Positions 2,259 through 4,077 of a DNA stretch of 64,000 nt are shown here, piece after piece (positions within the stretch are counted from its first letter, which is position 1; every line of letters starts with the position of its first letter). The stretch is from the NCBI RefSeq assembly GCF_013388255.1, contig NZ_CP058215.1:2347332-2411331 (forward strand), given 5' to 3'. The notes under the pieces are model-generated. The model had not been told where the DNA came from, made no database searches, and saw only the letters and a list, made by a program, of their open reading frames with translations. Both the position numbers and the translations under genes were made by a program. Source of the DNA: Methanolobus zinderi. Its GTDB lineage: Archaea > Halobacteriota > Methanosarcinia > Methanosarcinales > Methanosarcinaceae.

Positions 2259-2423
2259 CTAATAAAGAGGAAGCTTGTTAAAAAGATATGCACAAACCCC
2301 GCCTATTACAAATATACGCATGAAATCCAGATTGTATGGCAAAGCTCCGCTTGCATAACATAACATCAGGCTAACAAGCAAGCCAATAAATATGGTATAA
2401 ATCACAAGGTCTTCCATTTCCAT
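2259..2423 (-). CDS. Very small membrane protein (54 aa)
   Basis: The ATG at 2423 is preceded by AAGTGATT, a match to the GTGAT part of the archaeal ribosome site, with 5-nt spacing. The 54-residue product has two hydrophobic segments (about 6-27, VIYTIFIGLLVSLMLC, and 34-49, FMRIFVIGGVCAYLF), suggesting a two-helix membrane peptide. It is the last of four tiny minus-strand genes with gaps of only 10-32 nt. Function unknown. Short length limits certainty, but spacing, ribosome site and composition favour a real gene. Confidence 0.5.
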   Translation of the reverse strand: MEMEDLVIYTIFIGLLVSLMLCYASGALPYNLDFMRIFVIGGVCAYLFNKLPLY

Positions 2424-2436
2424 ATTGAATCACTTT

Positions 2437-2661
2437 TCAGTAATCCGGCAGGAAAGCATACTTGCCAGTTGATAGCTTCGTATAATATGAGTATCTGTCC
2501 TGCGTGGTTTCGGTAAAATGGTCCATATCATATAAAACAGTTAACACTGCAAAAACGGACAACTTTTTTAGTATCTCATAAGTCAGAGAATGCACATAGC
2601 ATGCATATACACAAAAGCCTGTGAGAAGAATACAATAAAACGAAAAATAATCAATAAACAT
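2437..2661 (-). CDS. Small membrane protein (74 aa)
   Basis: The product has two hydrophobic stretches (about residues 4-30 and 34-45) and a polar C-terminal tail rich in Tyr, Asp and Thr. AGGGT lies about 6 nt before the ATG, within the short palindrome CCCTGTTTAACAGGG (2669-2683). It follows the zinc-ribbon genes by 32 nt and precedes the 54-residue membrane gene by 13 nt, all on one strand. I recognise no family. A chance frame is possible because the region is AT-rich. Confidence 0.4.
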   Translation of the reverse strand: MFIDYFSFYCILLTGFCVYACYVHSLTYEILKKLSVFAVLTVLYDMDHFTETTQDRYSYYTKLSTGKYAFLPDY

Positions 2662-2693
2662 ACAGGACCCTGTTTAACAGGGACCTTTTCTAA

Positions 2694-2834
2694 TCAAACA
2701 AAGTCAGAAGATACGAGGTATCCGCAACTTCTGCAGTAATAGAATACATTCATACCCATTATCTGTCTTTTCAGCATTTCCCTGCATCGGAAACATATCT
2801 TATTCTTTTTTTCCTTAGATTTCAGTAAGCCCAT
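2694..2834 (-). CDS. Zinc-ribbon mini-protein (46 aa)
   Basis: The 46-residue product has a basic N-terminus (KSKEKKNK) and two Cys pairs, C14-F-R-C17 and C34-R-S-C37-G, the spacing of a single zinc ribbon. A strong ribosome site (GAGGTG, then 6 nt, then ATG) overlaps the stop codon of the preceding gene, which suggests coupled translation. Such ribbons often bind nucleic acid or protein partners; the actual role is unknown. It forms a tandem with the gene at 2845-2982, but the two share little beyond the Cys pattern and CG(Y). Confidence 0.75.
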   Translation of the reverse strand: MGLLKSKEKKNKICFRCREMLKRQIMGMNVFYYCRSCGYLVSSDFV

Positions 2835-2844
2835 TTTCCCCACC

Positions 2845-2982
2845 TCACACAATCATCATAGAAGAGTCCAGTCTTGCTGTCCCTTTTCTGGCCCAGTAGC
2901 CACATGTTTCACAAAACTGTATTCCTTTGCCATTCTCATCCAACCGGGATTTACACACCGGACATTTTTGTAACTGCTTCAT
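2845..2982 (-). CDS. Zinc-ribbon mini-protein (45 aa)
   Basis: The 45-residue product carries C7-P-V-C10 and C24-E-T-C27-GYWA, a compact zinc-ribbon pattern. The ATG at 2982 is preceded by GTGGGG at 7-12 nt. It is the first gene of the four-gene run on the minus strand. A TATA-like TTAAATAAA (3071-3079) and the palindrome TATCA-G-TGATA (2997-3007) lie upstream. Function unknown; nucleic-acid binding is possible on family grounds only. Confidence 0.75.
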   Translation of the reverse strand: MKQLQKCPVCKSRLDENGKGIQFCETCGYWARKGTARLDSSMMIV

Positions 2983-2996
2983 TGTTTACCCCACTG

Positions 2997-3079
2997 TATC
3001 AGTGATAGATACGGACCCCCCAGGTAAATGATCTGAGAAGCCATCCCCGATAAGCCTATAGTGCCATGTTTTTATTTAA
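2997..3079 (-). promoter_or_regulatory. Probable promoter and palindrome of the mini-gene run
   Basis: On the minus strand TTAAATAAA at 3071-3079 fits an archaeal TATA box, putting the transcript start near 3048 and giving a leader of about 65 nt. In that leader TATCAGTGATA (2997-3007) is a perfect palindrome around a central G and could be an operator or a small stem. No experimental support. Confidence 0.4.
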
Positions 3080-3249
3080 GCTAATCTGGAATGAAATTCA
3101 TAAGGCATGCTCGGATAAGAATGCTTTTGAATTTTTAGTACTACCTTAAACACTATGCTCAGAATGAAAATAGGATCTGGACAGTAAAAATAAATACTTT
3201 ATCAAAAATATGGAATATCTTAAAATCAATAAAGGATCAATATTATCTG

Positions 3250-4077
3250 ATGGACATACACAGGACTGCAGCCTTCAACCGTCCCCTTGACCTGAACAAT
3301 ACGGGAAACTTCCTTATACTACTGATAACAGCAAGCGTAATACCCGCTTCAGTAATTTATCATTACTTTTCCACAGAATCGCTCATGAGTGCGGTATTAA
3401 GTGGTTTCAGGACAGGCATAATAGTGTTTCTTACCTGGGCAGTCTCCCGGGAACTTGATCCGGATAACGATTTATCCGCATTCGTAGCTGTAACCCTGGT
3501 ATTGATATTTATTCCGCTATTAGGACAGGCATCTGTTCTGCCTATATTCTGGATTCTCCTGATCTTGCGTACCTTAAATCGCAGCTCAGGCGTCAGACCC
3601 GGCGTTTTAGATATGTTCTTTATACTGATATTGGGAACCCTGCTTACATCTACCGTATCCTGGATATATGGTGTTCTTACAACGCTTGGGCTTTTGCTTG
3701 ATAGTAAACTGCCCCCATCTGACAGAATTCATTTTTGGGCTGGCATCTTTATGGGAATCATTACCTTATTATCCGTTTTACCTGAAGGTTTAATCCTACC
3801 AAACATCTCATTTTCGACATTACCGATACTGATCATAGTAGCGATACTGTTCCTCCCGGTGATCATGGGTTCCTCTGAAATAAAAAGCATTGCAGACAGG
3901 ACCGAAGAAAAGTTAGATCCCACAAGAGTAATGATGGCACAGTTAATGGCACTGGTCGTGGTTCTTAGTTTTAGCCTGACAGAAGTTCATGGATGGTTGT
4001 ATGCAATGTACTGTGTTCTTGCAGGTACAGGCCTGTACAGGATATTTTTCAGGAAACTGCTGCCTGAAGAACTATAA
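3250..4077 (+). CDS. Multispanning membrane protein, family not recognised
   Basis: The 275-residue product is almost entirely hydrophobic, with about eight predicted transmembrane segments separated by short charged loops (for example RELDPDND near 70 and DRTEEKLDPTR near 220). There are no transporter signature motifs I can name. GGATCA lies about 10 nt before the ATG. The gamma-carbonic-anhydrase-like gene starts 52 bp downstream on the same strand, so the two may be cotranscribed. Function unknown. Confidence 0.75.
   Translation: MDIHRTAAFNRPLDLNNTGNFLILLITASVIPASVIYHYFSTESLMSAVLSGFRTGIIVFLTWAVSRELDPDNDLSAFVAVTLVLIFIPLLGQASVLPIFWILLILRTLNRSSGVRPGVLDMFFILILGTLLTSTVSWIYGVLTTLGLLLDSKLPPSDRIHFWAGIFMGIITLLSVLPEGLILPNISFSTLPILIIVAILFLPVIMGSSEIKSIADRTEEKLDPTRVMMAQLMALVVVLSFSLTEVHGWLYAMYCVLAGTGLYRIFFRKLLPEEL

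Follow-up and report, generated by a model that had tools for sequence, protein, structure and literature searches.

Two very small genes, designated zr1 and zr2, form a conserved tandem pair, the existence of which is near certain, and encode probable zinc-binding mini-proteins found only in one methanogen family, the Methanosarcinaceae. The pair was met in a DNA stretch of 64,000 nucleotides (the window; bases 2347332–2411331 of a 2.70-Mb single-contig genome). In the named genome collection this genome stands closest to Methanolobus sp. UBA118 and to Methanolobus halotolerans SY-01 (L005), which makes it a methanogen of Methanolobus type within the Methanosarcinaceae. The preferred explanation, which is held tentatively, is that zr1 and zr2 constitute an autonomous zinc-ribbon operon, whose products would be small RNA- or complex-binding adaptors with leader-based control.

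The initial annotation had described a row of four minus-strand genes preceded by a promoter and a palindrome. The four reading frames were recovered as described (45, 46, 74, and 54 aa with gaps of 10, 32, and 13 nt), and so were the two CxxC pairs read directly in each of frames 1 and 2 and the ribosome site GAGGTG of zr2, which overlaps the TGA of zr1 in the sequence TGAGGTGGGGAAAATG. The promoter and the palindrome were read directly as a TATA-like element and a short inverted repeat upstream of it (Table 1), the latter being present also in M. halotolerans SY-01 and partly in locus L004. According to first-order randomisations of the window, 0.55 reading frames of 40–80 aa with at least two CxxC motifs are expected per 64 kb; the window contains five, and two of these are adjacent at zr1-zr2, an arrangement which is not expected by chance. 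Upstream of the pair (window positions 3250–4077) lies a gene for a 275-aa hydrophobic protein without Pfam or NCBIfam match, which is found also in M. halotolerans and is lacking at the same place in L036–L038.

Table 1. Features of the zr1-zr2 region and their positions in the window
Feature	Position	Strand	Description
zr1	2845-2982	-	predicted 45-aa zinc-ribbon protein, CPxC-x13-CxxCGYW..KGTARLD
zr2	2694-2834	-	predicted 46-aa basic zinc-ribbon protein, CxxC-x16-CxxCG
Frame 3	2437-2661	-	74-aa chance ORF and no gene; frameshifts in near strain, stops in L005
g4 (frame 4)	2259-2423	-	54-aa two-helix membrane peptide; a neighbour of the pair rather than its conserved partner
5' leader of zr1-zr2 mRNA	2983-3055	-	predicted hairpin, then ribosome site AGTGGGGT; position and topology as in relatives
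TATA-like element TTAAATAAAA	3070-3079	-	read directly; recurs before the leader in many clade zr1 loci
Short inverted repeat GAATTTCATTC	3086-3099	-	upstream of the TATA element; read directly

Distribution, order, and selection of the pair

Of 101 family genomes, 88 gave a match to zr1 and 83 a match to zr2 when single-sequence queries were used, and searches with profiles A1 (zr1) and A2 (zr2) detected each gene in 41 of 42 Methanosarcinaceae genomes. No convincing match to profile A1 was found in approximately 250 genomes elsewhere in the phylum; all matches outside the family were weak (E above 5e-5), scattered over genomes, and mostly confined to a part of the ribbon, as generic ribbons would be expected to give. 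Profile A2 likewise found no zr2 in the six order- and class-level genomes tested. The zinc-ribbon half of the initial annotation thus proved stronger than it had been stated, the tandem pair being conserved across the Methanosarcinaceae.

The order of the two genes is fixed. In 38 of the 41 genomes with zr1, zr2 lies directly 3' of it on the same strand, the core gap is mostly 27–55 nt, and the reverse order was never seen among the 55 pairs collected. Invariant positions are L4, CPxC, CxxC, YW, and R37 in zr1 (alignment A1) and both CxxC motifs in zr2 (alignment A2). The dN/dS values in comparison with M. halotolerans SY-01 (0.06 for zr1 and 0.05 for zr2), together with the presence of synonymous changes only in comparison with UBA118, indicate strong purifying selection on both genes. 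Comparison by hhalign shows that zr1 and zr2 are related families (84.5%, E 7e-6), which suggests that the pair probably arose by an old tandem duplication.

The flanking genes vary between genera and include gamma carbonic anhydrase, a membrane protein, a RimK-type ligase, and others. Since no neighbour was constant in the compared loci, the zr1-zr2 unit stands alone, and the assignment of function from neighbour genes was rejected for the same variability.

Solo copies exist in both families. A further zr1 copy in the genome of the window (L034/L172, G000:C1:1190740-1190874; also L169) overlaps by 8 nt at its end with another small reading frame, of 57 aa and with the motif KVLREVPLH, which recurs in M. 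halotolerans, so that zr1 can have another partner. A solo zr2-like gene of about 64 aa (L173, G000:C1:1685014-1685118), ahead of which zr1 was not detected, has relatives in many family genomes. A HepT-like gene (L033, 3774–4136) near the zr1 copy at G000:C1:1623571 is preceded by a nucleotidyltransferase-like frame, and the two may be an MNT-HepT pair.

The leader RNA of zr1

In the Methanolobus clade the region upstream of zr1 has a recurrent architecture: a TATA-like box is followed about 20 nt on by TGTCAGGATG..GTTCCC..CACCC..GGGTG..GGGAAC..TTTCCTGA and then by AGTGGGGTGAATAA and the start codon. It is likely that this leader of about 80 nt is a conserved folded RNA. Of two covariance models, R1 (built from five leaders) finds the element ahead of zr1 in clade loci and genomes, and R2 (built from 19 leaders), searched against 27 genomes of the genus, yielded 23 hits with E below 0.01. 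As judged against the positions of the zr1 searches and the locus sequences, every one of the 23 hits is immediately followed by zr1 sequence, be it a gene, the leading copy of a decaying array, or a pseudogene. Three of the weaker R2 hits (E above 0.05) were read (L168, L170, and L171) and have no zr1 behind them.

The fold is indicated by several measures of different strength. In the leader alignment 95.6% of cells are paired versus at most 58% in slid controls, and compensatory cells number 10 versus 4.1 ± 1.6 after shuffling, being concentrated in helix 3; in the confident set, whose alignment was fitted to the model, the changes in helices 1 and 2 are all one-sided. In a wider leader set, which was also fitted to the model and contains doubtful rows, double changes occur in 13 of 19 pairs. 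The mean folding z over 22 leaders was –1.76, and the structured model scored about 3–23 bits above a sequence-only model at the same places, a rough comparison as the two models weight sequences differently. A duplex self-against-cross permutation test of arm pairing was weakly positive (p 0.02–0.04), and no consensus fold emerged when divergent leaders were aligned with MAFFT. The likeness of the leaders may also come from recent duplication of related leaders.

The leader in the window itself has diverged: it was matched by neither R1 nor R2 and agrees with the clade leaders in position and overall fold topology only, while its orthologue in SY-01 was matched with 20.1 bits (E 0.006). In two further genera the leaders form hairpins of another kind. 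Rfam searches of the window region and of six leader loci gave no match at E values up to 1.

In the Methanolobus clade the amount of zr1 and zr2 would be set post-transcriptionally through this folded 5' leader, which ends next to the ribosome site, and the simplest form of such control would be binding of a zinc ribbon to its own leader. The zr1 leader resembles the autogenously regulated leaders of ribosomal proteins in being folded and in standing directly before the start codon of a gene whose product is a small zinc-ribbon protein that may bind RNA; it differs in being a candidate regulator without an Rfam family match. A bolder version of this proposal is regarded as conceivable and rather doubtful: archaeal structured leader RNAs of a new class would mediate autoregulation of the Methanosarcinaceae-specific zinc-ribbon pair, and the leader-plus-gene cassette would multiply and decay through Methanolobus genomes. 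If true, this would be a protein-RNA feedback circuit in archaea whose parts have 45 residues. To our knowledge, few cis-regulatory RNAs are known in archaea, and the zr1 leader is a candidate for one in a family with genetic tools.

Some observations concern the leader loci themselves. In L096, L097, and L100–L103 and at G075:C1:2931328-2931956, decaying zr1 copies follow one another head to tail behind a single leader; the upstream copies in such arrays no longer have all their cysteines (QHREICGYR), which would fit a cassette that is quickly duplicated and quickly lost. Two leader hits precede zr1 pseudogenes with a frameshift or stops (L166, G075:C1:2932995-2933045; L167, G097:C40:180989-181068), which were found only because the leader persists. 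In a leader subgroup (L034, 4873–4950; L099, 441–518; L139) the 5' arm TGTCAGGA can pair either with a near TTCCTGGCA or with the distal ACTCCTGA, possibly giving two exclusive folds.

Predicted folds and related systems

The AlphaFold models show a three-strand ribbon for zr1 (pLDDT 71) and a ribbon of three short strands for zr2 (pLDDT 76), which is a basic protein with a mean net charge of about +5. The nearest folds and profiles are the ribbons of RPB9/TFS and ribosomal L37Ae, which act in nucleic-acid machines. These similarities are weak: Foldseek found no match below E 1e-3 for zr1 or zr2 (best E about 0.05), and both proteins remain below the curated cut-offs of every Pfam and NCBIfam family. 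As zinc ribbons match many unrelated families weakly, such resemblances are not diagnostic. According to the preferred reading, zr1 and zr2 would form an autonomous bicistronic operon for two related cytoplasmic micro-proteins with a single zinc ribbon each, most likely acting as metal-bound adaptors, with RNA or a ribonucleoprotein or polymerase complex as their partner.

The polymerase similarity may be taken further, so that zr1 and zr2 would bind each other and dock on RNA polymerase as a split TFS/RPB9, the leader being only an element of stability or translation efficiency. The best profile match of zr1 among PDB chains is to TFS4 residues 4–25 (E 6.6e-4, one ribbon only), the zr2 model is best matched by RPB9 (Foldseek probability 1.00, TM 0.6) with a weak profile match to RPB9 83–113, and the constant order and pairing would suit stoichiometric partners. 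Despite these points the split-factor proposal is considered unlikely: zr1 and zr2 are single free-standing ribbons that share a ribbon fold with RPB9/TFS and L37Ae and show no significant structural match which would place them in the TFS/RPB9 family, both occur as solo copies, and the CxxC-x16-CxxC of zr2 is shorter than the Cys-pair spacing of a TFIIS-type C-ribbon.

A role as accessory ribosome or hibernation proteins, comparable to the HVO_2753-type zinc finger aS21, would be in line with the L37Ae-like ribbon fold and with the ribosome of Methanosarcina acetivorans, in which aS21, a small zinc finger that belongs to a different family, has been seen (PMC12605026). Neither profile gave a significant match to any chain of the solved ribosome structures searched, and therefore zr1 and zr2 are not stable ribosomal proteins in those structures, and a ribosomal role is judged improbable. 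The HVO_2753/aS21 family has four C(P)XCG motifs in one chain; with two motifs per chain and a best HVO_2753-like profile match of E 0.19, zr1 and zr2 do not belong to it.

Even less probable is that zr1 and zr2 are rubredoxin-type iron/zinc redox or metal-storage proteins with a metal- or redox-responsive leader RNA. In rubredoxin the order of the motifs is the reverse of that in zr1 and zr2, and no curated Pfam or NCBIfam cut-off was reached, although such a relation is favoured by the motifs CPxC and CxxCGYW and by the weak rubredoxin-like matches to Pfam that 10 of 27 members gave. It would also agree with the report that several C(P)XCG proteins of Haloferax do not bind zinc (PMC11241148).

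The closest known class is that of the C(P)XCG zinc-finger micro-proteins of Haloferax volcanii (HVO_2753, HVO_0758), which are shorter than 70 aa, have two or more C(P)XCG-type motifs, and are numerous per genome (PMC6562870, PMC11241148, PMC10716476); some of them affect stress adaptation, swarming, and biofilm formation (PMC6562870). Both zr1 and zr2 fit this class by their length and by the two CxxC-type motifs that each of them carries, a likeness of descriptive class and not of sequence-level membership; unlike the Haloferax proteins they make up two related families in a fixed-order tandem pair, limited to the Methanosarcinaceae and with a leader RNA in one clade. The Methanosarcina mazei sORF_06 has four clustered cysteines, is translated, and is conserved in the Methanosarcinaceae (PMC11456600); compared by description only, it may or may not be a member of zr1 or zr2, and in contrast to the pair it is described as standalone. 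No description of a tandem zinc-ribbon pair with a leader RNA was found in the open-licence PubMed Central papers searched. Archaeal micro-proteins are abundant and nearly all of unknown function, and zr1-zr2 presents a family-wide case with a fixed partner.

The neighbouring small reading frames

The initial annotation had joined the zinc ribbons with two tiny membrane proteins into a membrane-linked sensing module. This pairing did not hold, since one of the two frames is no gene and the other has homologues in few genomes and mostly lies apart from the pair, and no evidence points to a sensing module at the membrane. Stop codons in relatives or a lack of homologues, which had been named as evidence against the genes, were found for frame 3 and not for zr1, zr2, or g4.

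UBA118 is 97% identical over the region, with the promoter and leader unchanged in 128 of 128 nt and two or three changes in each of frames 1, 2, and 4; frame 3 has there three single-base deletions and 12 substitutions in 225 nt. Its counterpart in SY-01 carries stops, and no family match was found in Pfam or NCBIfam. From these comparisons frame 3 is judged to be a chance ORF and not a gene; its interpretation as a decayed or novel membrane protein was rejected owing to the near-strain frameshifts and the lack of homologues. Neighbouring small reading frames can thus be over-joined from raw sequence, and one close genome separates a gene from a chance ORF.

Frame 4 is a real 54-aa two-helix membrane peptide and a gene of its own (g4), almost limited to the genus: homologues are present in 16 of 101 family genomes, 15 of these 16 in the same genus, and dN/dS is 0.11. 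Of the four frames, only zr1 and zr2 stay together across relatives. That the four frames represent one functional micro-operon of zinc ribbons and membrane peptides is extremely improbable, despite their close spacing in the window and the coding character of g4, which lies near the pair in SY-01 too; frame 3 is frameshifted in UBA118, and most genomes with the pair have no g4, while in others the two lie apart.

In six relatives (L006–L011) a distance of about 1.2 kb separates the pair from g4, which lies downstream, beyond a RimK-type ATP-grasp gene of opposite orientation, and the only RimK-type match in the genome of the window lies elsewhere and is 37% identical. The simplest account would be that g4 came to lie near the pair when the RimK gene was lost. 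Elsewhere (L052, L053) g4 homologues were observed near an amino-acid-permease-type transporter or a URO-D-type protein, and sORF_05 of M. mazei is likewise described beside a methylamine permease.
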